Origin: an uncultured Bacteroidia bacterium
Lineage (GTDB): Bacteria > Bacteroidota > Bacteroidia > Bacteroidales > UBA932
DNA: 64,000 nt
Assembly: GCA_902792815.1 (NCBI GenBank)
Contig: CADBAY010000007.1
Span: 41,744-105,743, forward strand
Direction: 5' to 3'
Each line of letters starts with the position of its first letter. Position 1 is the stretch's first letter. Below are positions 14,252 to 60,552 of the stretch, one piece after another. The notes beneath the pieces were generated by a model that worked only from the letters and a program-made list of their open reading frames with translations, was not told where the DNA came from and searched no databases. Position numbers and translations under genes: made by a program.

Positions 14252-14274
14252 GATATTATCAGCATCTGATGTCT

Positions 14275-14717
14275 CCCGTGTGCAAAAACGGTCCTTCCTG
14301 CCCCCGAGGCCTGCCCGCAGCGGCGTCCCGTGTGCAAAACGGGCCTCCCTGCCCCCGGGGCCTGCCCGCCGCGGCCTCCCGTGTGCAAAACGGCCCTTCC
14401 TGCCCCCGGGACCTGCCTGCCGCGGCCTCCCGTGTGCAAAACGGCCCTCCCTGCCCCCGGGACCTGTCTGCTGCGGCCTCCCGTGTGCAAATCGGCCCTT
14501 CCTGCCCCCGGGACCTGCCCGCCGCGGCCTCCCGTGTGCAAAACGGCCCTCCCTGCCCCCGAGACCTACTCGCCGCGGCCTCCCGTGTGCAAAACGGGCC
14601 TTCCTGCCCCCAGGACCTGCCAACTGCGGCCTCCCGTGTGCAAAACGGCCCTTCCTGCCCCCGGGATCTGCCAGCTGCGTCCTCCCGTGTGCAAAACAGG
14701 GCTTCCTGCCCCCGGCC
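14275..14717 (+). repeat. Tandem array of nine 51-bp units (family A)
   Basis: Nine units start with CCCGTGTGCAAA at 14275, 14327, 14378, 14429, 14480, 14531, 14582, 14633 and 14684. The spacing is 51 bp, except the first unit, which has one extra A. The best-conserved part is CCCGTGTGCAAAACGG followed by CTTCCTGCCCCCGG; the last 15 bp vary more. CCGT...ACGG can pair across a 7-nt loop in most units, but units 5 and 9 break it. 51 is divisible by three, so every frame without a stop in one unit stays open. This explains long spurious ORFs on both strands. The same unit recurs at 35.8 kb. It fills most of the 620-bp gap between the two GLUG genes. Confidence 0.92.
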
Positions 14718-35794: not shown

Positions 35795-36033
35795 ATCTTT
35801 CTGCCCCCGGCACCGGCCCGCTGCGGCTTCCCGTGTGCAAAACAGCCCTTCCTGCCCCCGAGACTGGTCTGTTGGGGGCTCCCGTGTGCAAATCGGCCCT
35901 TCCTGCCCCCGGGACCGGCCCGCTGCGGCTTCCCGTGTGCAAAAAGCCCCTTCCTGCCCCCGGGAGCAGCTCGTTTGGTGTTCCCGTGTGCAAAACGGCC
36001 CTCTCTGCCCCCGGAATCTGCCAGCCGCGGGAC
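35795..36033 (+). repeat. Second array of 51-bp family A units (four and a partial copy)
   Basis: Units start with CCCGTGTGCAAA at 35830, 35881, 35932 and 35983, each 51 bp apart. They are preceded by a partial copy carrying TTTCTGCCCCCGG. The sequence is the same family as at 14.3-14.7 kb. The last unit runs straight into the hairpin units at 36029. Confidence 0.9.
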
Positions 36034-47019: not shown

Positions 47020-48462
47020 TTGTCCAGGATTGTCTTTCATATCGATGTGAACTCCGCCTTTCTTAGCTGGACGGCGGTAAAGATGGTACGCGAGGGCGGG
47101 CCTGATATACGTCTGGTGCCGTCGGTGGTCTCGGGCGATCCGGGCGACCGGCGTAGCATTATCACGGCGGCGTCCATCCCTGCCAAGAAGCTCGGCATCA
47201 AAACCGCTACTCCGGTCACGATGGCTCTGCGTACCTGTCCGTCGCTTGTGATCGTTGGCGGCGACTGGACTTGGTACAAGCAATGCTCGGAGGGCTTCAT
47301 TGCCATCTGCAGGCGCTATTCGCCGGTGCTGCAGCAGTTCTCAATCGATGAGTGCTTCATCGATATGACCCTCCGCTGCTCGCAGGAAAACGCTGTGTCG
47401 GTGGCGACCCGGCTCAAAGACGAAATCAAGGCCCGCCTCGGCTTTACCGTCAACGTGGGGGTGGGTTCCAACAAGCTCCTCGCCAAGATGGCCTCCGACT
47501 TCGAAAAGCCCGACAAGGTGCATACTCTCTGGGAGAGCGAGGTGCAGGAGAAGATGTGGCCGCTGGGCGTGCGCGACCTCCTCTGGGTGGGCAAGAAGAC
47601 AGAGGAGCGCCTTACCGCATACGGCATCAGAACGATAGGGGACCTTGCACGGCTGAGCCTCGGTCCGTTGACCCGGCTGGTGGGCCGCAAGTTCGCCCTG
47701 CAGCTGCACGAGAACGCCAACGGACGTGACGATTCTCCTGTCGAGACCGAGGTCGCCGAGGCCAAGAGCTACAGCGCCGAGCGTACTTTCAGCCAAGACC
47801 TGGTGGACCCTAAAGATATCGACCGGGCGCTGTTTTACGTGGCCTGCATCGTGGCGCACCGCATCCGGAGGGACGATTTCAGGGCATCGACGGTATCGAT
47901 GTTTGTAAAGTACAAAGACTTCTCGGTGTCGCAGAAGCAGACCTCGCTCGCGCAGCCTACAGACGTTACGGCCGTTATATTGAATGAGGCCCGGAGGATG
48001 CTCGTTGAGGCTTGGGATGGCGTGACGCCCCTGAGGCAAGTAGGCCTCGGAGTGTCGAAGCTCACGCACGAATCGGCCTTGCAGATGTCGCTGTTCGAAG
48101 ATCCGAAGATGGAGTACTACCGCGAATGGGACCGCCAGTACGACGAGCAGCGTGCCCTTGCCGAGGATGCCCGCATGCTGGCTTACGAGCGGAGGGTTAC
48201 GCTGCCACCGGTTGAGAATCCTTCACGCGGTGCAGCACAGCCTGCCCAGCAGCATTCCCGCCGCCCGGCCGCCCCGAAGGACGATGCCCTGGTATTCACT
48301 TACCCGAGCGGGGAAGCTGCGCTCTTGGCCGCCAAAAAGGCCATCAAAGGGCATCCTACCTACCGATTCCAGCGCCGCCGCCAGGACAACGGAGCCGACT
48401 GCTTCGAAGTCCTGGACGACGGCAAACTGATCGAACGCCACTGCGTCAGCGAGGGCGCTTGA
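47020..48462 (+). CDS. dinB: Y-family DNA polymerase (DinB/Pol IV-like)
   Basis: A 480-residue translesion polymerase. HIDVNSAFLSW carries the first catalytic Asp and QFSIDECFIDM the catalytic Asp-Glu pair. GVGSNKLLAKMASD is the helix-hairpin-helix region. The little-finger domain follows, and about 75 residues are added at the C-terminus after a Pro/Ala/Gln-rich linker, ending in a beta-rich FQRRRQDNGADCFEVLDD module. The start must be TTG at 47020, because the in-frame stop of the previous gene lies 6 bp upstream and any ATG would remove the catalytic Asp. Its end overlaps the convergent DUF2807 gene by 17 bp. Confidence 0.92.
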   Translation: MSRIVFHIDVNSAFLSWTAVKMVREGGPDIRLVPSVVSGDPGDRRSIITAASIPAKKLGIKTATPVTMALRTCPSLVIVGGDWTWYKQCSEGFIAICRRYSPVLQQFSIDECFIDMTLRCSQENAVSVATRLKDEIKARLGFTVNVGVGSNKLLAKMASDFEKPDKVHTLWESEVQEKMWPLGVRDLLWVGKKTEERLTAYGIRTIGDLARLSLGPLTRLVGRKFALQLHENANGRDDSPVETEVAEAKSYSAERTFSQDLVDPKDIDRALFYVACIVAHRIRRDDFRASTVSMFVKYKDFSVSQKQTSLAQPTDVTAVILNEARRMLVEAWDGVTPLRQVGLGVSKLTHESALQMSLFEDPKMEYYREWDRQYDEQRALAEDARMLAYERRVTLPPVENPSRGAAQPAQQHSRRPAAPKDDALVFTYPSGEAALLAAKKAIKGHPTYRFQRRRQDNGADCFEVLDDGKLIERHCVSEGA

Positions 48463-49156
48463 TTTTCCCCAGCCCGTGGGTTTGGGCGGAGAAGTCTTTG
48501 CAGTCGAGGCCGGAAGCGTCGATGTCTCCGGCGCCGTTGATTTCTGCCTTTGCTTTGCCGGCGCGTCCGGTAATCACGATGTCGCCGGCTCCGTTGACCT
48601 CCATGCTGAGCTCGGAGCAGTCAAGTCCGTCGATGTCAATATCTGCGCTGCCGTTTGTGTAGATGGTGGCGCTGCCGGTCTTGAGCCCGTCGATATCAAT
48701 GTCGGCGGCTCCGTTTACTTCAACCTTAAAGTCGGGCGCGGAGATGCCGGTTGGAGCGCTGAATTCTACGGCGCCGTTGAAATTGACCTCCTTGAGCTCG
48801 GGACATGAGACTTTGAGCGTAACTTTCTGGAGCTTGTTGAATGAGATTTTGCTGTCTTTGCTTACCGACAGTTTGCCGTCTTTATTTTCAATAACAATGT
48901 ATTTTAATACGTTGTCGGGCCCGCTGAGCGATACTGAGCTTTCTCCGGCAGTATAAACTACATTGCACGCAATATAGCTGCTGATGGAGTTGAATTCACC
49001 CATGGTGGTGTCTTTGGTCGCCATAGAGTCGCTGGCTACTATGACCTTTTTCCCTTCGCTTGTACCATCCAGGAGAGCGCTGTTTACTTTGATGAAGCGG
49101 CAGGAGGGGAGGGAAAGCAATGCTACTGCTGCAAGTATGAGTTGAATCTTTTTCAT
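48446..49156 (-). CDS. DUF2807 (GIN-type) lipoprotein
   Basis: A 236-residue lipoprotein (MKKIQLILAAVALLSLPSC). The body is the DUF2807 'head GIN' beta-helix: repeated short strands with GAADIDIDGL, GSADIDIDGL, GAGDIVITG and GAGDIDASGL. The function of the family is unknown, but it is commonly found beside ABC/GntR modules. It is 7 bp after the GntR gene, the last gene of the ABC operon. Confidence 0.88.
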   Translation of the reverse strand: MKKIQLILAAVALLSLPSCRFIKVNSALLDGTSEGKKVIVASDSMATKDTTMGEFNSISSYIACNVVYTAGESSVSLSGPDNVLKYIVIENKDGKLSVSKDSKISFNKLQKVTLKVSCPELKEVNFNGAVEFSAPTGISAPDFKVEVNGAADIDIDGLKTGSATIYTNGSADIDIDGLDCSELSMEVNGAGDIVITGRAGKAKAEINGAGDIDASGLDCKDFSAQTHGLGKIKRPR

Positions 49157-49163
49157 ATCTATT

Positions 49164-49502
49164 CTACTTAATGTATTCTTTAAGGTCTACGCCGAGCAGG
49201 GAAGCGCGCTGCAGGAGCTGAGGCACTTCTTCTTCGATAAACTTGCGGCGTTCGGTTTCGCGGATAAGTTCGATTGCATCTTCACTCACGAAGAAGCCTA
49301 TGCCGCGCTGGTTGTAGATGACCTTGCGGTCAGTCAGGATCTCATAGGAGCGGGCCACTGTATTGGGATTGACTCCTATCGATGCACCCCATTCGCGAAC
49401 GGACGGGATCCGGCTGCCGGGCGTGAAACTGCCCGAGAGAATCCGGTCGCAAATGTTGTCCGCGATCTGGATGTAGATTGGTTTGTTGTTGTCAAATTCC
49501 AT
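49164..49502 (-). CDS. GntR-family regulator (YtrA type)
   Basis: A 112-residue DNA-binding protein. The winged helix spans about residues 8-75 (PIYIQIADNICDRILSGSF, IPSVREWGASIGVNPNTVAR) and a short helical C-tail (EEVPQLLQRASLLGVDLKEYI) replaces the larger effector domains, which is the YtrA subfamily form. I chose the ATG at 49502, because the longer frame enters the permease gene. It is 5 bp after the permease stop. The AGTGTA-12 nt-TACACT palindrome at 51144-51167 is its likely operator, giving autoregulation of the operon. Confidence 0.9.
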   Translation of the reverse strand: MEFDNNKPIYIQIADNICDRILSGSFTPGSRIPSVREWGASIGVNPNTVARSYEILTDRKVIYNQRGIGFFVSEDAIELIRETERRKFIEEEVPQLLQRASLLGVDLKEYIK

Positions 49503-49507
49503 GGCTA

Positions 49508-50311
49508 TTAGTGTTTGAGGGTGCGCAGGCGGAGCCAAGTGAGTACAAGCAGACCGCCTAGCGTTATGATGTTGAAGATGTTGAGCGTCCAGTTGAAGGC
49601 GTCAATCGCCGATGCGGGATCGTTGATGTCATCAACAAATTTGCTGATCGAGTCGCCTAGACCAAGCTTCGCAGCAACGATTGCGAGTATCGAAAGAACG
49701 GTACTCAAGACGAACAAGAAGAGGAAGGTTTTGGCAACTTTGGCTTTCTTGAAGAATATTCCGCCCAAGGTGAAAGTGAGGGCGCATCCGCACCATCCGA
49801 GGAATAAGATGGCCGGCATGTTGACGGAAACATCTTCATCGCCGGTTATGCTTGCCAAATCGGAGGCTAAATCCGAGTTGATTATACCGTTACCATAGAT
49901 GGACGGGGCCAGCCAGCTGAGCAGAGCATCGGAAGCGAGGGTGAGCACCAGTAAAGCAACCGGAACCACTATGCAGACCATCAGCACCATCGAGAGCCAT
50001 TTCTCGGTAGTTGACGCCGGAAGCATCAGGAAATCAGACCCTGTACGCTTGTCGGTGATGGATCCGTAGATTTTTACGCCTGCCGAAACTGCGGTGACGA
50101 AAAGAACTATGCTCAGCACGATTATCTTGGATTCACCTGGCATCGTATATACGTTACCCCCTCGGAGCAGCATAGTCAGAAGATGGATAATAAACAGTAT
50201 CACAGGCATCAACCCCAGCACCAGGAGGCTTATTCCGTAATTGTTGCCTGCCCTGCGCAGATCGTAGGCGAAGTAATTGCCGAAACGCTTGAAGTCGAAA
50301 ATGTTATTCAT
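49508..50311 (-). CDS. ABC transporter permease
   Basis: A 267-residue membrane protein with about six segments (LLVLGLMPVILFIIHLLTML; IIVLSIVLFVTAVSAGV; ALLVLTLASDALLSWL; NIITLGGLLVLTWLRL). It overlaps the ATPase gene by 8 bp, so they form a transporter. Such two-gene ABC modules with YtrA regulators are often involved in antimicrobial or envelope-stress responses. The substrate cannot be read. Confidence 0.88.
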   Translation of the reverse strand: MNNIFDFKRFGNYFAYDLRRAGNNYGISLLVLGLMPVILFIIHLLTMLLRGGNVYTMPGESKIIVLSIVLFVTAVSAGVKIYGSITDKRTGSDFLMLPASTTEKWLSMVLMVCIVVPVALLVLTLASDALLSWLAPSIYGNGIINSDLASDLASITGDEDVSVNMPAILFLGWCGCALTFTLGGIFFKKAKVAKTFLFLFVLSTVLSILAIVAAKLGLGDSISKFVDDINDPASAIDAFNWTLNIFNIITLGGLLVLTWLRLRTLKH

Positions 50312-51134
50312 GGCGGAAGATGTTTTTGACGAGTTCTTTGTGCTTGTGGACGGTGTTGAAAAGGGCTTCGATGTTTACTTTGCTTTCGAGTCCTTCGGGG
50401 TTCTGATATACCTGGATGAAACCGCCGGGGAGCTGCTCGGAGTAGAGGCTCTGAGGGTTCAGGGTAGTGCCGTAGTCGAAGTAGAGCTTCTTGGCGATCT
50501 GCTCCAGGCTGGCGTTGAGAAGCACCTCCCGCTTGTCAAGGATAATAATAGGGTCGATGATGTTCTCCAGGTCTCTCACTTGATGGGTGGAGATTACGAT
50601 GGTGGCATCCTCGGCCGTGTACTTCATGAGTGCGGAACGGAACTGTGCTTTGGAAGGGATGTCGAGTCCGTTGGTGGGCTCGTCCAGATAGAGGAACCTT
50701 ACTCCGGAAGCCATGGCGAAGGCGATGTAGGTCTTCTTGAGCTGTCCGGAAGACATGGCGTTCATCTTCTGGTTCGGATCCACCTCGAATTCCTTGAGGA
50801 TGGCCTCGTATTTCCCGACCGAGAAGTTGGGCCAGAATATTCCGCTTGCCTTGGCCCAGGCAAGGGCTTTGTCGTTGACCGGGGCTACCTCATCGGGCAG
50901 GTAATACTGGTCGCGGAGCAGGGAAGGCTCCCTCTTGTAAGGGTCGTGACCATCGGTCTGGATAGTGCCGGACTGTGTTTTCTTGAGTCCGCAAAGGAGA
51001 GTCAGCAGGGTAGTCTTGCCCACTCCGTTCTCGCCCAGAAGTCCGTAAATCTTTCCGGGCTCGAGGTTCATCGAAATGTTGCGAAGGACCTCATTTTTGC
51101 CGTAGCTGAACGCTAAATCATTAATCTTTATCAT
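50304..51134 (-). CDS. ABC transporter ATP-binding protein
   Basis: A 276-residue ATPase. Walker A is GENGVGKTT, the signature SSGQLKKTY, Walker B LYLDEPTNGLD and the switch His follows in ISTHQVRD. Together with the permease and the GntR regulator it forms an operon whose promoter and operator are at 51144-51199. Confidence 0.95.
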   Translation of the reverse strand: MIKINDLAFSYGKNEVLRNISMNLEPGKIYGLLGENGVGKTTLLTLLCGLKKTQSGTIQTDGHDPYKREPSLLRDQYYLPDEVAPVNDKALAWAKASGIFWPNFSVGKYEAILKEFEVDPNQKMNAMSSGQLKKTYIAFAMASGVRFLYLDEPTNGLDIPSKAQFRSALMKYTAEDATIVISTHQVRDLENIIDPIIILDKREVLLNASLEQIAKKLYFDYGTTLNPQSLYSEQLPGGFIQVYQNPEGLESKVNIEALFNTVHKHKELVKNIFRHE

Positions 51135-51903: not shown

Positions 51904-52034
51904 TCACAGGGCCGTTGCGAACAGGCGCATGCTCCTGGAGACATGTGCGGCGGCGGCCTAGGCCTCCGGCAATGGTATCACGGTAGCGGTGCGTGCAAAG
52001 TGATCTCGCCATTTTTTTTGTTGCTGATATTCGT

Positions 52035-52042
52035 TATATTTG
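52035..52042 (+). promoter_or_regulatory. -7 box for the NRPS gene
   Basis: TATATTTG, 23 nt before the ATG at 52066. No clear -33 element. Confidence 0.6.
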
Positions 52043-52065
52043 TAGAATATACAATATAATTGCAC

Positions 52066-55000
52066 ATGAGCACTTATCCACTTTCCCAGGCACAGCTGAG
52101 CATTTTCCTCGCATGCCAAGGACTTGACGACAAATCTGGCAATTACCAGTTACCGGCCCTCTACAAACTGCCTGCCGGCATTGATACAAACAAACTTGCA
52201 GCGGCGCTCGAAGCTGTAGTAAAGGCTCACCCCGCTCTCAATTCCCGCATCGTGCTGGAAAACGGCACGCCGCGTTTTGAGGAGGCCCCGGCCGGAGAAT
52301 GGAAAACCGGCTTTGAGAAAGTGGCATCTATAGACGATGTGCGCAAAGACTTCGGAAGGCCTATGGACCTGCTTTCGGAGCCCTTGTGCAAGGCCGTAAT
52401 TTGGCACACCGATGCTGGCGACTATCTGTATCTTGATTTCCATCACATTGTTTTTGACGGGTTGTCCATAAGCATTTTCCTGAAAGAACTCGATAAAGCA
52501 TACAGGGGAGAGGCTCCGGAAGCCGAAAAGACAAGTATGGCTCAAATAGCTCTACGCGAAGAGAAGTTGCGTGGCGGCGATGAATACCAGGAGGCCCAAT
52601 CGTGGTTTGCCGACAACTTTGCTCCGTGCGCCGAGCTGGAATCGACGCTCAGGCCCGATGTCTCTGATCCTCAGCAGGATGCACCTCATGTGCAGGGGAC
52701 ATCTTATAGCTGCGCCGACTTCCCGGTACACATTACCCGGCAGACGGTCGATACCCTCAGGGACAAGTACGGCTGCTCGGAGAGTACCGTTTTCTCGCTT
52801 GCATTCGGGCTTACCCTGTCGGCTTGGAACGCAGATACCAAAGCTTGGTTCCCCACCGTCTGGAACGGGCGCGTCGACAAAGACACGCTTGATACAGTCA
52901 GCATGTGCGTCCATACCCTTCCGGTTTATGTGGAATGGACTCCGGGTATGGAACTCAAGGCCCTTTTCGGAAAAATGAAAGAGCAGGCGGAAGGAGTGCG
53001 CAAACGCCATTTCTATTCCTTTGCCGACTGTGCCCGTGACCTTGGGCTCAGCGTAGCTCTTTGCTTTGGCTATCAGGGGCAAATGGTGGGTATGAATCCC
53101 TTTGTGATGACTCTGGGCGATGCCGAACTGACTCCCGAAGATTTACGTACCAATCCGCCCGGAATAGGCCTTCCGATAGAATTGTTCGCCACCCCCGCCG
53201 GAGAGTTCCAGATGCGCTTCTGGTATCAGAGTGACAAATATTCAAAGCAGATCCTGGGATATTTTACAGACAGCTTTTCCGCTTGCCTGAATTCAATGGC
53301 GTCTGCCTGCACCGTAGAAGATCTTGCTTTCTCAAGCCCTGAGCAGATGAGCGAGCTGGATTCTTTCAACCCGGGGCCCTGCAGTTTTGACACCGAAGTA
53401 ACGCTTCTCGACCTGTTCCGGAAGAGCCTTGCCGCAGATCCCGGCCATACGGCCATAGTTTATAAAAACAAGTCTCTCACCTACAAGCAGGTTGACCAGC
53501 TTTCCGACAAGCTCGCGGCATATATCTCCGGGCACGTTGAGCCAGGCTCCGTCGTTTCCATCATTCTTGACCGCAACGAGTATATGATGGTTGCTCCTTT
53601 GGGCGTAATGAAATCGGGCTGTGCTTACCAGCCGCTAGATCCTTCTTACCCTGAGGAGCGCCTGGATTTTATGGTTCAGGACAGTGCGGCGGCTCTGCTG
53701 ATAGCCGATCCCGGCCTGGACAAGCTTGTGGGTTCATATAACGGACCCAAGCTTTGCACCTCTGACATCCCGTCGCTGCCGGACGGCCGCCCGGATGCAG
53801 CCATCACTCCGGACGACCTGCTCATACTTCTTTATACCAGCGGTACCACCGGAAAGCCCAAGGGATGTATGCTGAGCCAGCGGAATGTGTCGAATTACGT
53901 GTGCAAGAATAAACAGGTCCTGGGCGTAGACGCAAGCTCCAGGCTGATTGCCTATGCCAGTTTCGGATTCGACGCTTTCCTCTCCGACCTCTACACGTCG
54001 ATCGCCGCGGGTGCAACCTTATATGTTATCCCCGAAGAAATACGCCTCGACCTTATCGCCCTGGACAAGTTCTTCACGGATAACAGCATCACGCATGTAT
54101 TCATGACCACCCAGGTGGCCACCCAGTTTGCCCTCAACTTCCCGCAGGCACCCATCAAGTGCTTATATACAGGCGGCGAAAAGATGGCGAGCATTCCTCT
54201 GCCCGAATACAAGCTCTTCAACTGCTACGGCCCCACCGAAAGCGTATGCTATGTCATATACAAGCAAGTTGTCAAGCAGGAGCCCGATATTCCCATCGGA
54301 CGCCCGGTGGACGGAATCCATGCCTATGTGGTATCCAAATCGGGCCAAAGGGTGCCCCCGGGAGCCGCGGGAGAGCTTCTCGTGGCCGGAAAGCAGGTCG
54401 GTATGGGATATCTTAACCGTCCAGACAAGACCGCGGAGGTGTTTATCGCCAACCGCTACGAAAAAGATGAGCTGTACAAAAGCGTTTACAGCACAGGCGA
54501 TATAGTCCGGTACAGGCCGGACGGTGACATCGAATTCATAGGCCGTAAAGACTCCCAGGTCAAGATACGCGGTTTCAGGATAGAGCTTAAGGAGGTAGAA
54601 ACGGTCATCCGTGAATTCCCCGGGATCACCGACGTTACCGTGCAGGCTTTTGACGAACAAGGCACCGGCGGCGGAAAGTTCCTCGCTGCGTACATAGTAT
54701 CACCGTCACCTGTTGATATCGATGCCCTCAAGGCCTTCATCTTTGACCGCAAACCGCCGTACATGGTTCCGGCGGTGATTATGCAGATCGAGGCTATCCC
54801 TCTGAATGTCAACCAGAAAGTTGACCGCAAGGCGCTTCCGGAGCCTAAACTGGAAAGCAGCGCCAAGACTGCCGAAGCAGCACCTCTCAACATACTGGAG
54901 CAGGAGCTGAGCTCACTTATCGCAGAGTCGGCGCACGTCGAAGGCTTCTCGCTTACCGATCCGCTCTTCTACTATGGTCTGACCTCTTTGTCGGCCCTCC

Positions 55001-58000
55001 GTCTTGCCACCGAACTTTACAAGCGCTACGGCATCTCGGTTAATATGGACACATTCGTCAAAACTGCAACCCTGCAGTCGATTGAGAACGATGTGTTGTC
55101 CACCCTTATGCTCCCCCGCGAAGAGGCCGCCTCGGAGGTGAAGGAGCGCAGCGAAGGCCCCAGGCCGCTTACATACCAGCAGGAAGGAGTGTATTTCGAC
55201 TGCATGAAAGCGCCGCATGAAACCGTGTACAACATTCCGGTCATGTGGACTTTGCCTGCCGGACTGGATGCAGAGAAGGTTCGCGACTGCGTGCTTGCCG
55301 TACTGAAATGCCATCCGTACATCAACACTCATTTTGAGATGATTGACGGAAAGGTGATGCAGGTCCCCACCGACAAAGAACCCGAGGTTGAATTGCTCAG
55401 TATCGGCGAGGCTGAACTGGAGAGCTTCAAGACCGCTTTCACTAAGCCTTTCAATCTGTCCGAAGGGCCGCTCTACCGTGTGGCAGTGGTGCAGGCTGGC
55501 GGCGGACTTTATCTGTTTACCGATTTCCATCACACCATTTTCGACGGACGGTCATACGACATTTTCATGACCGAACTTACTGCTGCTGTTGACGGTAAAG
55601 AGCCTGCAAAAGAAGCTTATTCTTACTTCGACTATGCCTCCGACCAGAAAGAGGCGGAAGAAGGGGAAGAATTTGCCGCCGCCCGAGATTTCTTTAACGG
55701 TCAGATGGCAGGCTGCGAAGGAGCTAGCGGCATACTTCCCGATCTCGAAAAGGGTGACGGCCCCGGGCGCGAGGCAAGCCTTGTTAAAGCTGTAAGCGCC
55801 AAAGTCTCCGAGCGTTGCAGGAACCTTGGCATATCACCGGCAAGCTATTTCCTGTCGGCGGCGTTCCTTGCCGCAGGCGCTTTCAGCGGCAGCAAGAAAG
55901 TATATATCTGCACCATCAGCAACGGCCGTTCCGACCTTAGGACTTCCGATACTCTGGGTATGTTCGTCAACACCCTGGCTCTGGCCTCTGACACCTCGTC
56001 GGCAAGCACGGCGGAGTACCTGAAGCAGACCGATGACGCCTTCTCCCAAACCAGGGCGCACGAGAATTACCCATTCGCAAAAGTGGCGTCCGACTTTGAT
56101 TTCCAGCCTCAGATAATGCTCGCATATCAGGTCGGCGTGCTTGAAGAGTACCGTATCAACGGCGAGGCCATCAAGTCGGAGAATCTTGAGAGCAGCGCTC
56201 CTAAATTCCCCGTGAGCATCTTCATCGAAGGTAAAGAGGGAGAGGAAGTTATACATCTCCAGTACGACGATTCCCTCTACAGCAAAGAACTCATGCAGAG
56301 CTTTGCCGACACTATGGAGAATATTGCTTGCGCCCTTGCTTCCGACTGTTCTCTTGACGGCATTTCGCTTATCAATCCCGCCCAGACCGGCATGCTGGAC
56401 GGATTCAATTCTTACTCTACTCCTGTCGATAGTTCCCGGACCATTGTTTCACTCTTCAAGGAACAAGCTGCCCGCAATCCCGAGGCGCTGGCGGTTTCGT
56501 ACCAAGACAAGCAACTCAGCTATGGCCAGCTGGACGCTCTCACCGACAGGATCGCAGCCTACATCGCTTCGCTTGGACTTGGACGCGAAGATGTGGTTTC
56601 CGTCCTCATCGGCCGCAGCGAGATGATGCCGATCGCATCTCTTGGTGTGTTGAAGGCAGGATGCGCTTACCAGCCTCTCGATCCGTCATATCCTCAGGAA
56701 CGCCTGAACTTTATGATTCAGGATGCTGATGCAAAGCTCCTGATTGCCGACGGCGATTTGCTGCATCTTCTCAACGATTATAGCGGCCCCGTGCTGGATA
56801 CGGCAAAGATAGATTCTTTGCCCGAGGGCCCTCTGCCCGAAGGTCCTCTGCCCGAGAGCCTCTTCATACTGTTATACACTTCAGGATCGACTGGTGTTCC
56901 CAAAGGATGCATGCTCGAGCACAGGAACCTGGTGAATTTCTGCACCTGGTACCGCGAATACTACGACCTTACTCCGGACAGCCGCGTGGCAGCGTACGCC
57001 AGCTACGGTTTCGATGCCTGCATGATGGATATGTATCCCGCGCTCACTACGGGGGCAAGCGTGCACATTATTCCCGAGGATACCAGGCACGATATGTCGG
57101 CCATCGACAAGTTCATTACTTCCAACGGTATAACTCACAGCTTCATGACCACCCAGGTAGGCGTCATGTTCGCACAGAACTATCCGGACAATCCGTCACT
57201 GAAGCATCTGTCGGTAGGCGGGGAGAAACTGGTGTCCATCAATCCTCCTTCGTATGCGTTCCACAACGGCTACGGCCCCACCGAGTGCACCATCTTCTCA
57301 ACCATATTCGACGTTCAGAAGAAAGAGGCCAACATTCCCATCGGCCATCCGCTCAGCAACCTTAAGCTCTATGTCGCCGACAGTTCATTCAGAAGATTGC
57401 CGGCAGGAGCCGTCGGGGAGCTTTGGATTTCCGGCCCCCAGGTAGGCCGCGGCTATCTTAAGAGGCCCGACAAAACAGTCGAGACATATATTCCCAATCC
57501 TTTCGAGTCCGATGCCCCCTACGACCGCGTGTACCGCACAGGCGACATAGTACGTTACCGCATGGACGGCAACGTCGAGTTTGTGGGCCGGCGTGACGGG
57601 CAGGTCAAGATCCGTGGATTCCGCGTGGAAACCAAGGAAGTGGAAGCCGTGATTAGGGAGTTCCCGGGTGTGAAAGACGTTACCGTGCAGCCTTTCGACA
57701 GCCCTTCTGGAGGCAAATTCATTGCTGCCTACGTTGTTATAGACGGGCCTCTGGATACCAAGGCGCTATCAAGCTTCATCCTCCAGCGCAAGCCGCCGTA
57801 CATGGTGCCTGCAGCATTCATGAAGCTCGAACAAATACCCCTCAACGTCAATCAGAAAGTCGACCGCAAGGTCCTTCCCGCTCCGGTAATGAACTCCGCG
57901 GATTCGTATGTCGAGCCGTCCAACGATACCGAAAGGGCCCTGTGCGAGATATTTGCGCAGGTGCTGGGAATGGACCGCACCGGTGTGACGGACAATTTCT

Positions 58001-59364
58001 TCGATCTTGGAGGTTCTTCCCTTATGGTCACCAACGTGCTGGTAAACGCCGAGCGCAAAGACCTGCACTTCTCATACGGCGACGTGTTCGCACATCCTAC
58101 CGCCCGTGAACTTGCGGCCTTCCTTACCGGCCAGTCTCCCGTTGCCGAAAGTGATGATGATGTTGCAGGTTACGATTATTCTGCAATCAATAAATTATTG
58201 GCAGGGAATACGCTGGAGAACTTCATCAGCGGACAGAGGCAGGAACTTGGCAAGAACATACTCCTTACCGGTACTACGGGATTCCTCGGAATCCATATGC
58301 TCCGTGAGGTCCTTGACCAGACACCTTCTGATACTGTTATCTGGTGCCTGCTTAGAGGTAAGGGGGCCATCAGCGCTGAGCGCAGGCTCACCGAAATGCT
58401 GGTCTATTACTTCGGCCGCGATTATATGCACCTTCTCGGGAGCAGGATAAGAGTTATCCAGGGCGACATCACCGACGGCGCCGTATTCGCCTCTATGCTT
58501 CTCTCCGGTACGCCGTACGATACGGTTATCAACTGCGCTGCCAACGTAAAGCACTTCTCTCGCGGAAACGATATTCTGAAGGTTAATTACGAGGGCGTGA
58601 AGAATATCGTCGATTTCTGTATCAAGCGCGGTGCAATGCTGATTCAGGTATCCACCGAGAGTGTCGGCGGAATGGCCGCTGGCGAATCGCCTATGCTCAC
58701 GGAGCAAATGCTTTACTTCGGGCAGAACACCGACAACCAGTACGTGTTCTCCAAGTTCATGGCCGAGCGTTACATACTCGAAAATGTGGCCGGAGGCAAG
58801 TTGAACGCAAAGATAATGCGTGCAGGTAATCTGTCGCCGCGTGCTGCCGACGGAGAATTCCAGATAAACTTCAACACCAACGCCTCCATGGGGCGCCTGA
58901 AGTCGTACAGGATACTGGGGGCTTGCCCTTACTCGCTACTGGAAGCCAAGATGGAGTTCTCTCCCATCGACGAAACGGCAAAGGCGGTGGTACTCCTTGC
59001 CCGGACTCCGAAAGAGAACTGCGTGTTCAATGTCTCCAATAATCACCTGATCCCTATGGATGACATAGTATCGCGCTTGAAGCTCGGTGACGGCTCTTCC
59101 CTGGAGTATCTTGAAGATGCCGACTTCTTCCGCCGCATGGAAGAGGCTAAATCGGACCCCAAGAAGGCTAAGATCCTCTCCAGCATCATCGCGTATGACC
59201 AGGCCGACGGCCAGTTGCATATGGTTGAGCCGTCTACAGCCTTTACGATGCAGATTCTGCACCGCCTCGGCTTCCGCTGGGACCAGACCAACAGCCGTTA
59301 CGTGGATATGATTTTTGAAGTACTTGACTCATTCCGCTTCTTCGACACTGCTTTGGATGATTAA
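52066..59364 (+). CDS. Two-module nonribosomal peptide synthetase, C-A-T-C-A-T-reductase
   Basis: A 2432-residue protein. C1: His126-His127 in HHIVFDG. A1: LYTSGTTGKPKG near residue 590, CYGPTESVCY, STGDIVRYRPDG and NVNQKVDRKALP. T1: the phosphopantetheine Ser974 sits in an atypical YGLTSLSALRL instead of LGGxS. C2: H1155-H1156 in HHTIFDG. A2: LYTSGSTGVPKG near 1602 and GYGPTECTIF. T2: LGGSSLM, Ser1984. A reductase domain follows: GTTGFLG at 2069-2075 and YVFSK at 2226-2230 (Tyr, Lys). The thioester would be released by NAD(P)H reduction as a dipeptide aldehyde, which can cyclise to a pyrazinone. By-eye pocket residues are D-A-S-F-Y-G-C-C-Y (A1) and D-A-M-F-S-G-G-I-F (A2); I make no substrate call. 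No PPTase or MbtH is adjacent. Confidence 0.96.
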   Translation: MSTYPLSQAQLSIFLACQGLDDKSGNYQLPALYKLPAGIDTNKLAAALEAVVKAHPALNSRIVLENGTPRFEEAPAGEWKTGFEKVASIDDVRKDFGRPMDLLSEPLCKAVIWHTDAGDYLYLDFHHIVFDGLSISIFLKELDKAYRGEAPEAEKTSMAQIALREEKLRGGDEYQEAQSWFADNFAPCAELESTLRPDVSDPQQDAPHVQGTSYSCADFPVHITRQTVDTLRDKYGCSESTVFSLAFGLTLSAWNADTKAWFPTVWNGRVDKDTLDTVSMCVHTLPVYVEWTPGMELKALFGKMKEQAEGVRKRHFYSFADCARDLGLSVALCFGYQGQMVGMNPFVMTLGDAELTPEDLRTNPPGIGLPIELFATPAGEFQMRFWYQSDKYSKQILGYFTDSFSACLNSMASACTVEDLAFSSPEQMSELDSFNPGPCSFDTEVTLLDLFRKSLAADPGHTAIVYKNKSLTYKQVDQLSDKLAAYISGHVEPGSVVSIILDRNEYMMVAPLGVMKSGCAYQPLDPSYPEERLDFMVQDSAAALLIADPGLDKLVGSYNGPKLCTSDIPSLPDGRPDAAITPDDLLILLYTSGTTGKPKGCMLSQRNVSNYVCKNKQVLGVDASSRLIAYASFGFDAFLSDLYTSIAAGATLYVIPEEIRLDLIALDKFFTDNSITHVFMTTQVATQFALNFPQAPIKCLYTGGEKMASIPLPEYKLFNCYGPTESVCYVIYKQVVKQEPDIPIGRPVDGIHAYVVSKSGQRVPPGAAGELLVAGKQVGMGYLNRPDKTAEVFIANRYEKDELYKSVYSTGDIVRYRPDGDIEFIGRKDSQVKIRGFRIELKEVETVIREFPGITDVTVQAFDEQGTGGGKFLAAYIVSPSPVDIDALKAFIFDRKPPYMVPAVIMQIEAIPLNVNQKVDRKALPEPKLESSAKTAEAAPLNILEQELSSLIAESAHVEGFSLTDPLFYYGLTSLSALRLATELYKRYGISVNMDTFVKTATLQSIENDVLSTLMLPREEAASEVKERSEGPRPLTYQQEGVYFDCMKAPHETVYNIPVMWTLPAGLDAEKVRDCVLAVLKCHPYINTHFEMIDGKVMQVPTDKEPEVELLSIGEAELESFKTAFTKPFNLSEGPLYRVAVVQAGGGLYLFTDFHHTIFDGRSYDIFMTELTAAVDGKEPAKEAYSYFDYASDQKEAEEGEEFAAARDFFNGQMAGCEGASGILPDLEKGDGPGREASLVKAVSAKVSERCRNLGISPASYFLSAAFLAAGAFSGSKKVYICTISNGRSDLRTSDTLGMFVNTLALASDTSSASTAEYLKQTDDAFSQTRAHENYPFAKVASDFDFQPQIMLAYQVGVLEEYRINGEAIKSENLESSAPKFPVSIFIEGKEGEEVIHLQYDDSLYSKELMQSFADTMENIACALASDCSLDGISLINPAQTGMLDGFNSYSTPVDSSRTIVSLFKEQAARNPEALAVSYQDKQLSYGQLDALTDRIAAYIASLGLGREDVVSVLIGRSEMMPIASLGVLKAGCAYQPLDPSYPQERLNFMIQDADAKLLIADGDLLHLLNDYSGPVLDTAKIDSLPEGPLPEGPLPESLFILLYTSGSTGVPKGCMLEHRNLVNFCTWYREYYDLTPDSRVAAYASYGFDACMMDMYPALTTGASVHIIPEDTRHDMSAIDKFITSNGITHSFMTTQVGVMFAQNYPDNPSLKHLSVGGEKLVSINPPSYAFHNGYGPTECTIFSTIFDVQKKEANIPIGHPLSNLKLYVADSSFRRLPAGAVGELWISGPQVGRGYLKRPDKTVETYIPNPFESDAPYDRVYRTGDIVRYRMDGNVEFVGRRDGQVKIRGFRVETKEVEAVIREFPGVKDVTVQPFDSPSGGKFIAAYVVIDGPLDTKALSSFILQRKPPYMVPAAFMKLEQIPLNVNQKVDRKVLPAPVMNSADSYVEPSNDTERALCEIFAQVLGMDRTGVTDNFFDLGGSSLMVTNVLVNAERKDLHFSYGDVFAHPTARELAAFLTGQSPVAESDDDVAGYDYSAINKLLAGNTLENFISGQRQELGKNILLTGTTGFLGIHMLREVLDQTPSDTVIWCLLRGKGAISAERRLTEMLVYYFGRDYMHLLGSRIRVIQGDITDGAVFASMLLSGTPYDTVINCAANVKHFSRGNDILKVNYEGVKNIVDFCIKRGAMLIQVSTESVGGMAAGESPMLTEQMLYFGQNTDNQYVFSKFMAERYILENVAGGKLNAKIMRAGNLSPRAADGEFQINFNTNASMGRLKSYRILGACPYSLLEAKMEFSPIDETAKAVVLLARTPKENCVFNVSNNHLIPMDDIVSRLKLGDGSSLEYLEDADFFRRMEEAKSDPKKAKILSSIIAYDQADGQLHMVEPSTAFTMQILHRLGFRWDQTNSRYVDMIFEVLDSFRFFDTALDD

Positions 59365-59379: not shown

Positions 59380-59473
59380 CTGCGGGCCCGAAATTGGCGA
59401 AAACGGGCCCGCAGAGCAGTTTGGAGCTCCTCCCGGGCCTGAAATTGGCGAAAACGGTCCCGCAGAGTAGTTT
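59380..59473 (+). repeat. Two hairpin units (family B), 51 bp apart
   Basis: The first unit has perfect 11-bp arms CTGCGGGCCCG and CGGGCCCGCAG with a 13-nt loop AAATTGGCGAAAA. The second, exactly 51 bp later, has the same loop and imperfect arms. They sit 16 bp after the NRPS stop. No T-tract follows, so it is not a standard terminator. The loop is the same as that of the family C hairpins at 36 kb. The rest of the gap to 59561 holds no gene I can see. Confidence 0.85.
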
Positions 59474-59561: not shown

Positions 59562-60479
59562 TTACTTTGTTGACTGTATCCAGGATATAGCATCCTCCAA
59601 TGGCGTTTCTGTCTCGACGTCCGGAGCGATCGGGTCGTCGCAGAATACTTCCCCGGTCCTTGCGACGTCGCAGCCGGTTGTCAGGGCCAAAGAATAGCCG
59701 TTCTTCAGCGGGAACGGTTGGTTGGCACTGGCGAAGCCCGCTGTCGGGCTGCCGAACGTCTTTGTATTGTCAAGCCCCCTGAAACAGAGCAGGGTGGCTT
59801 CTCCGGAACTGGCAGTCATGTCGTTGGTCAGGATGGCTACAGGCGTCCCTTCGGGGAATGTCCGGACCTCCGAGGCCTTGATGCCGACGACTCTCAGGAC
59901 AAAACCCAGCGTGACCGGTGTGGTCCGCTTCTTCCCTTTGAATTGCAGGATCACGCCATCCGGCAGCAGCGGTGACACGGCGGAGATCATGGGATACATG
60001 TTGCCGCCATAATTGTCCCGGAGGTCAATCACCACGCCGGCAGCCGATGAATTCTCCTGCAGGAAATGCAGTACCGAATATGCATAGAGTGAATCGCTCA
60101 CCTGTGCGCCGCTATGTTCCGGCAGCTTGACATAGGCGATGCCGCCTTCGAGCATCCTGGCTTCAGGCGCGAATTCGGGATAATTCACGGTATCCCTCTC
60201 CGGAGCCATGAGGGCGGAATGCTTCCCGCCGGCTACTTGTGCCGCCTGATATACCAGATAATTGGCCCATCCCAAGGTAGATACAGTATCCGCTGCCGAG
60301 AGAAACTCTTTTTTCCGGGCCTTCCACTCAGGCGTGTCAGAGTAGAGGCCGTGCCTGTCCATAATCCGTATACAATGACGCACATAGCCAGGGTGTGTAT
60401 CCTGGTTGTCAAACAGGCAGCACGAGGTGACCGCAAACAGGAAGATAATAAAGAGAGAATAACAGATTGTTTTTCGCAT
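59562..60479 (-). CDS. S41-family peptidase lipoprotein
   Basis: A 305-residue lipoprotein (MRKTICYSLFIIFLFAVTSC). The S41 (tail-specific protease) core has VIDLRDNYGGNMYPM and the nucleophile Ser in TNDMTASSGEATLL, followed by GSPTAGFASANQPFPL. The PDZ domain of Ctp proteases is not evident, so it is the short form. It cleaves proteins or peptides in the periplasm or at the outer membrane. It shares a 28-nt upstream sequence with the reverse gene at 63503-63727. Confidence 0.88.
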   Translation of the reverse strand: MRKTICYSLFIIFLFAVTSCCLFDNQDTHPGYVRHCIRIMDRHGLYSDTPEWKARKKEFLSAADTVSTLGWANYLVYQAAQVAGGKHSALMAPERDTVNYPEFAPEARMLEGGIAYVKLPEHSGAQVSDSLYAYSVLHFLQENSSAAGVVIDLRDNYGGNMYPMISAVSPLLPDGVILQFKGKKRTTPVTLGFVLRVVGIKASEVRTFPEGTPVAILTNDMTASSGEATLLCFRGLDNTKTFGSPTAGFASANQPFPLKNGYSLALTTGCDVARTGEVFCDDPIAPDVETETPLEDAISWIQSTK

Positions 60480-60502
60480 ATTCAAATAACGATTTATCGC
60501 TC

Positions 60503-60510
60503 CAAATATA
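60503..60510 (-). promoter_or_regulatory. -7 box of the S41 peptidase gene, inside a duplicated 28-nt promoter segment
   Basis: Reverse-strand TATATTTG, 23 nt before the ATG at 60479. Bases 60490-60517 match 63744-63771 with one difference. Confidence 0.65.
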
Positions 60511-60552
60511 CACAAAACAAATTAAGACATAACAACCTTGTGCTGGATAGCG

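Follow-up and report, generated by a model that had tools for sequence, protein, structure and literature searches.

A two-module, reductase-ended peptide synthetase gene from a Bacteroidales genome, with a family view of its N-terminal condensation domain and its linked genes

The gene described here encodes a nonribosomal peptide synthetase (NRPS) that is real, apparently intact and ordinary in kind. Its domain order is C-A-T-C-A-T-R (C, condensation; A, adenylation; T, carrier; R, thioester reductase), and this kind is already known among the reductase-ended dipeptide NRPSs of gut microbes. We favour, with moderate confidence, the reading that it is a working two-module enzyme of the gut type which makes an N-acyl dipeptide aldehyde. 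Its substrates and capping donor, release as an aldehyde, a role as inhibitor and the subtype of the first condensation domain (C1) are predicted. What the analysis adds is a view of the family, in which relatives, unlike this copy, keep sensing and export genes near the NRPS and the capping domain has apparently been removed twice.

The NRPS gene and its domains

The window, a stretch of 64,000 nucleotides, corresponds to positions 41744-105743 of contig C7 in the source assembly (G000; 2.37 Mb in 48 contigs, 97.4% complete). The NRPS frame has no internal stop and runs from an ATG at 52066 to a stop codon ending at 59364; the listed ORF begins at a TTG at 52060. Pfam identified two stretches each of Condensation (4e-88), AMP-binding (1e-140) and PP-binding (5e-22), together with NAD_binding_4 (7e-30). 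The features of the gene are as follows.

52066..59364, + strand: C-A-T-C-A-T-R NRPS of 2,432 aa (single open frame, Pfam, motifs)
52072..53316, + strand: C1, N-terminal condensation domain; HHIVFDG at 52441-52461
53413..54855, + strand (approximate limits): A1, adenylation domain; pocket string DASFYGCCYK
54883..55095, + strand (approximate limits): T1, carrier; GLTSL motif, Ser974
55162..56355, + strand: C2, condensation domain; HHTIFDG at 55528-55548
56455..57858, + strand: A2, adenylation domain; pocket string DAMFSGGIFK
57937..58125, + strand: T2, carrier; LGGSS, Ser1985
58255..59361, + strand: R, thioester reductase domain at the C-terminal end; GxxGxxG starting at residue 2069, Thr2197, Tyr2226, Lys2230

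The first-pass annotation had read this domain order in one protein, with its core motifs intact. Pfam and motif checks confirmed the order, and a motif audit combined with alignment to structure entries found the motifs of both C domains, both carriers and R to be intact. The adenylation domains carry YTSGTTGKPKG, YGPTE and NQKVDRK (A1) and YTSGSTGVPKG, YGPTE and NQKVDRK (A2); T2 has LGGSSL, and R has LTGTTGFLG, VSTES and YVFSK. The audit took in 92 distinct NRPS proteins, each 1,900 aa or longer, identical proteins from two collections being counted once. The HHxxxDG motif of C2 is conserved in all 92, and dN/dS is 0.05-0.09 for A1, T1, C2, A2 and R against the near ortholog L024; for these two reasons we do not regard the gene as a chance reading frame. 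All dN/dS values are from single pairs, C1 being compared mainly with G194 and the other domains with L024. In an ortholog of 88% identity (L109, G090:C141) the frame is broken in the R region, near 2812-2914, which reflects either an assembly error or decay.

The first-pass annotation had also expected a general phosphopantetheinyl transferase (PPTase), and G000 has one ACPS-family match, a protein of 217 aa on contig C3, away from the NRPS.

Relatives and probable habitat

A scan of a contig collection confirmed 325 relatives among 331 pattern matches, and the best 80 of the 325 were used for the neighbourhood work. By record title, 78 of these 80 come from Bacteroidota taxa, while L037 and L078 are titled "bacterium" only. 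Ruminant or rumen appears in 21 titles; in a further 39 the sole pointer is a RUG, RGIG or RUI code, taken here to denote ruminant origin; 20 have neither. The source bacterium is probably from the rumen and a member of a Bacteroidales genus, perhaps Cryptobacteroides. The best full-length match in a plasmid collection is only 29.5% identical.

At the level of the genus, 37 of 200 genomes have an NRPS match scoring 230 bits or more, a cut chosen for this analysis, and these 37 include other NRPS types. At the level of the order, matches of E 1e-60 or lower occur in 31 of 295 genomes; in nine of the 31, G000 included, a match among those listed passes position 1300 of 1404 and so enters R. Larger family relatives, with NRPS frames of about 2,850-3,470 aa, occur in the genus genomes G042, G178, G083 and G047. 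A second NRPS frame lies near the first in seven related loci (L040, L050, L055, L061, L075, L079 and L099).

Predicted substrates and release

The pocket strings of A1 and A2, read at positions that we assume to follow those of GrsA, contain no charged residue except the usual Asp and Lys. An exact match to the A2 string is found in 38 of the 71 full-length family proteins, in 10 of the 11 proteins that our script grouped as lacking C1, and in 7 of the 10 that it grouped as lacking the N-lobe of C1, the motif-bearing, catalytic half. The A1 string is variable across the family; in two C1-less proteins, L019 and L020, both strings are identical to those of the window. The strings suggest that both pockets favour nonpolar side chains, and we claim no specific amino acid for either.

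The closest solved structure to R is PDB 6vtj (248.7 bits), which we take to be the PCP-R didomain of an archaeal NRPS; the next is the AusA reductase, 4f6c (100.7 bits). Both alignments span the length of R, including the GxxGxxG motif and the Thr, Tyr and Lys residues. The reductive end proposed in the first-pass annotation is supported. We presume the catalytic roles of GxxGxxG, Thr2197, Tyr2226 and Lys2230. Reductase domains of this superfamily may stop at the aldehyde or go on to the alcohol, and one study reportedly concerns two- and four-electron reduction in myxochelin synthesis; R could therefore in principle transfer four electrons and yield a dipeptide alcohol. AusA-type pyrazinones, however, form via an aldehyde. 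Since the second-best solved relative of R is the AusA reductase, and AusA-type clusters yield pyrazinones (PMC6694145), we consider the alcohol improbable.

The N-terminal condensation domain

A full N-terminal C domain is present in 71 of the 92 aligned proteins, and its HHxxxDG motif is kept in 66 of these, the window protein included, and altered in five. For the window protein, dN/dS of C1 is 0.14 over 403 codons against G194 (0.12 for the N-lobe), and 0.26 over the last 72 codons against L024. C1 is thus constrained in the lineage of the window, but less so than the other domains measured. Similarity among relatives is also lower for C1 than for A1 or A2.

The first-pass annotation had called C1 a starter condensation domain, a label that follows from its position and that we treat as putative. 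A C1 profile of 51 rows matched the PDB entries for bacitracin (169 bits) and tyrocidine (151 bits) best, both of them internal C domains. Lower scores, of 45-85 bits, fell on the surfactin entries 8f7h and 8f7f (85 and 83.5 bits), on 7c1k-type entries (51-58 bits) and on CDA (45 bits), all of which we take to be lipo-initiation or starter C domains. The high scores of internal elongation domains would suit an enzyme in which a separate carrier protein hands an aminoacyl or peptidyl donor to C1 in trans, so that a longer peptide results. We attach little likelihood to this, because a search of G000 (97.4% complete) found no further condensation domain, its two matches both being those of the window NRPS, and because no carrier gene was recognised among the NRPS neighbours scanned. 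N-terminal C domains are often tied to N-acylation (PMC2812497, PMC8949500), and acylation of the first amine is the role that we favour for C1.

The distribution of C1 was examined on a tree of C2 plus A2, made by a quick method from 51 of the 92 rows, with SH-aLRT support only, long-branch warnings and no root. In this set the N-lobe is missing from seven proteins and C1 is wholly missing from nine. The group without the N-lobe is sister to the window protein and its near twin L024 (support 99, starred), and the group without C1 is nested in a clade of otherwise full-length proteins (also 99, starred), and two changes are enough to explain the distribution. An unrooted tree alone cannot separate gain from loss, but C1 is alignable across the family, and two losses are therefore the simplest reading. 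On this comparison of sequences, C1 has apparently been removed in whole or part twice, once in the sister clade of the window. No remnant of the N-lobe was found upstream in ten loci that lack it, some of which are one gene from two collections; the matches fall in C2. The loss counts omit L024, L062 and L050_1, contig-edge cases that the script had grouped as lacking or halving C1, as well as L054, which begins near a contig end, and L090, which begins, with no edge close by, at query residue 143. At L032:3946-17239, a C1-less NRPS frame stops about 3 bp ahead of a full-length one, and both product types may be made together there.

These losses bear on a reading in which C1 of the window protein is structural or fading, and the enzyme, like AusA, releases a free dipeptide aldehyde that becomes a pyrazinone by ring closure and oxidation. 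The catalytic half is missing in the sister clade and the whole of C1 in another, the other modules being retained in both; the C1-less L019 and L020 share both pocket strings of the window; and the changed motif in five of 71 proteins and the dN/dS of 0.26 over the final codons point the same way. However, the motif of the window protein is intact, as it is in most full-length relatives, and the dN/dS of 0.14 over 403 codons argues for constraint. We therefore regard a fading C1 as unlikely, and retain the acylating C1 as our preferred reading.

Gene boundaries and flanking sequence

The features on either side of the gene are listed here.

48446-51134, - strand: apparent operon of GntR, likely membrane permease (no Pfam match), ABC ATPase and DUF2807 protein
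51994..52065, + strand: 5' leader, likely promoter; TATATTTG at 52035-52042 resembles a Bacteroidetes -7 element
59383..59473, + strand: two 40-nt direct repeats, 51 nt apart, GC-rich and foldable, just past the stop
59562-60515, - strand: small S41 peptidase, convergent with the NRPS

The -7 consensus against which TATATTTG was judged is the one that we presume for Bacteroidetes. The TTTG before it is only 14 nt away and is not conserved in G194. A sigma-70 scan of the leader (51994..52065) gave no site on the + strand, promoter- and terminator-like sites in the scan were at most at about chance level, and the sole match in the window to Rfam at the gathering threshold is a tRNA.

In an ortholog of 91% identity (G194, L108), blastn homology starts at 51994, 72 bp before the ATG, and the flanks upstream look unrelated; the upstream neighbours there resemble SusC and SusD by eye. 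In the 88% ortholog of G090, homology stops at 59349, adjoining the stop, and an oxidoreductase-like gene follows (by eye). As the edges of homology lie close to the ends of the gene, in one ortholog each, the NRPS of this lineage seems to move as a single gene with its leader.

The 18-nt core of the 3' repeat has two matches in the genome, both at 59383..59473, and the fold has a z of -2.33; the repeats are a possible 3' end element. Elsewhere in the window are two GC-rich tandem arrays (14273-14715 and 35797-36014) with a 51-nt period and a common CCCGTGTGCAAAACGGCC-like core. Their period equals the spacing of the two-copy repeat after the NRPS.

The statement in the first-pass annotation that no export or regulatory gene is adjacent has to be corrected, since the GntR/ABC-transporter operon begins about 0.9 kb upstream on the opposite strand, with one 206-aa ORF between. 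As a dedicated exporter it was rejected, since it is not conserved beside the NRPS of relatives; its ABC ATPase has matches in seven loci, of 26-28% in the six listed. The S41 peptidase was considered for self-resistance and rejected as a conserved partner, since no counterpart was found at E 1e-6 in the sequence flanking the 80 related loci. Two ORFs about 8 kb before the NRPS match L037 or L063. The neighbours of the window NRPS (window ORFs from about 44 kb onward) showed no convincing recurrence in the 80 related loci.

Genes kept beside the NRPS in relatives

Clustering of flank genes in the 80 loci found a sensor-phosphatase of about 730 aa in 58, a porin-like protein of about 450 aa in 33, a STAS protein in 32 (by ORF clustering), a MATE protein in 14 and a PPTase in 11; the sensor cluster includes some fragments and shorter proteins. 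By tblastn, 57 of the 80 loci have STAS somewhere, and 54 of these also belong to the 58 that bear the sensor. Of the 43 loci in which 5 kb or more of sequence is available on both sides of the NRPS, 36 have the PDC/SpoIIE sensor-phosphatase no more than 5 kb away, 21 the porin, 17 STAS (ORF clustering), 12 MATE and 10 the PPTase. Among 56 sensors scanned, of which 52 are linked to an NRPS, SpoIIE was found in 56, an MCP-like PDC domain in 52 and HATPase_c_2 in 49. The porin label comes from Alginate_exp, whose match is weak (in L072 23.1 bits, below the cut-off of 25.2; in G000 26.9 bits), and the porin profile found no solved relative in the PDB.

Sensing and export genes are thus kept near the NRPS of relatives and are absent beside the copy in the window, where no SpoIIE sensor, STAS or MATE set was recognised among the neighbours. 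The suggestion in the first-pass annotation that the enzyme acts alone holds for gene linkage in the window; it does not hold for the family, given how often the sensor lies close by.

Sensor, STAS and porin genes elsewhere in the genome

In G000 the SpoIIE matches are on contigs C11 and C17, the porin on C11, MATE matches on C5 and the PPTase on C3. Contig C11 carries a sensor-STAS-porin operon with no NRPS nearby. A second sensor-STAS pair, on C17 (L111:4633-8025), follows a gene resembling a phosphotransferase (APH); L147 has a comparable arrangement of APH and sensor. A MATE exporter of the linked type is not supported for G000, where the matches are just 24% and 22%. G194 and G046 carry the same sensor-STAS-porin operon, away from any NRPS in the stretches read.

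A sensor tree of 31 rows, including every third of the sensors from outside the genus, was made by a quick method and rooted at the midpoint. It grouped the C11 sensor, in a starred set, with that of L032, which is linked to an NRPS, and then, in another such set, with those of L025, L027 and L037. The C17 sensor joined, also in a starred set, two sensors for which the stretches read show no NRPS link. Within the genus, the porin occurs in 22 of 37 NRPS-positive genomes versus 14 of 163 NRPS-negative ones (Fisher p 9e-11, uncorrected for kinship), and among genomes at least 90% complete in 9 of 15 versus 4 of 65 (p 1e-5). At the level of the order, a porin homolog (E 1e-10) occurs in 127 of 295 genomes, and both porin and NRPS in 17, against 13.3 expected; three of the nine order genomes whose listed NRPS match enters R have the porin. 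Co-occurrence is strong in the genus and not repeated in the order, and we place no weight on the porin as a partner. In 14 stretches from NRPS-negative genomes (L116 and L143-L155) a porin-like gene lacks an adjoining STAS match, and just two of them, L147 and L153, have a sensor, at a distance of some genes. The porin also leads a life independent of the NRPS.

It is quite possible, although we lean slightly the other way, that the C11 operon serves something else and is unlinked to the window NRPS. SpoIIE proteins occur widely in the genus, in 137 of 200 genomes, and the porin is found in NRPS-negative genomes of the genus and widely in the order. Against this, the C11 sensor groups with NRPS-linked sensors and the porin is enriched in NRPS-positive genomes of the genus. 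A working link in trans between the C11 operon and the window NRPS is plausible on these sequence comparisons.

Proposed pathway

In the pathway that we favour, a general PPTase would prime the carriers T1 and T2; A1 and A2 would load them with two amino acids, probably nonpolar; C2 would couple these; and R, using NAD(P)H, would release the C-terminal aldehyde. C1 would most likely acylate the first amine, giving an N-acyl dipeptide aldehyde unable to close to a pyrazinone. The separate sensor-STAS-porin operon may still control or serve the NRPS in trans.

This reading of a working two-module NRPS draws on the domains and motifs, the likeness of R to solved reductases, the motif and dN/dS of C1, the pocket strings and the one PPTase, and also on the edges of homology, the linkage of sensors in relatives and the separate operon in G000. 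It is weakened by the divergence of C1, by its absence or halving in two clades and by the higher dN/dS of its last 72 codons; by C1 not looking closest to lipo-initiation domains; by the broken R frame of the G090 ortholog; and by the failure of the porin co-occurrence in the genus to repeat in the order.

More speculatively, in a reading that we hold unlikely, C1 may act over evolution as an on/off cap, with a PDC/Cache-sensor partner-switch, encoded on another contig, still timing production. With C1, the product may be a capped aldehyde that inhibits proteases; without it, the free amine may close to a pyrazinone that serves as a signal. As relatives with and without the capping domain exist, and some share predicted pockets, the capped aldehyde, a possible protease inhibitor, and the pyrazinone, a possible signal, are directly comparable.

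Comparison with known systems

A gut family of C-A-T-C-A-T-R NRPSs is said to have been described by Guo et al. in 2017. The window NRPS has in common with this family (ruminopeptin, Ruminococcus bromii) the domain order and the reductive end, and probably comes from a gut habitat too. The resemblance in kind to such gut enzymes put forward in the first-pass annotation is supported. Unlike the published family, it is from Bacteroidales, and the likeness described here is one of architecture.

AusA, the aureusimine/phevalin synthetase of Staphylococcus, has an R domain homologous to that of the window protein. We take its order to be A-T-C-A-T-R, a core common to the window NRPS, and AusA to lack an N-terminal C domain. 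The top NCBIfam model for the window NRPS is that of AusA (NF047350), and its score of 1048.7 bits is below the curated cut-off of 2500, which places the protein outside the equivalog.

A survey of human-gut isolates assigned its dipeptide-aldehyde clan entirely to Blautia, and its NRPSs mainly to Bacillota and Pseudomonadota (PMC10039858). A C-A-T-C-A-T-R enzyme yields pyrazinones, and Leu-Val-H, a Boc-protected dipeptide aldehyde, is a cathepsin L inhibitor with an IC50 of 0.23 uM (PMC10979478); further work concerns ruminopeptin (PMC12327764). In 8,160 rumen genomes 5,346 NRPS clusters were counted, in a paper whose main text has no occurrence of "aldehyde", "reductase", "serine phosphatase" or "sigma factor" (PMC8241843). 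The extracts of PMC11448209, PMC9248904 and PMC6694145 contain nothing on a sensor, STAS and MATE gene set beside an NRPS, and the open-access literature searched gave no match for Cryptobacteroides together with nonribosomal peptide.

In that literature, as far as the available portions go, the one report of such a gene set beside an NRPS is the 2010 paper on Methanobrevibacter ruminantium, a rumen archaeon (PMC2812497). Mru_0068 has two C-A-T modules, and around it lie two serine phosphatases, an anti-sigma antagonist and MatE; its end is given as a thioesterase in the text and as a thioester reductase in the legend of Figure S8. Its neighbours resemble, by description rather than by sequence, the gene set of the window family. 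Mru_0068 differs in being archaeal and in having the set alongside, whereas the window NRPS has no such genes beside it. That comparable sensor, STAS and exporter genes accompany an NRPS both in Bacteroidales and in an archaeon of the rumen hints that the logic of control may be shared, and that rumen proteolysis may be affected.
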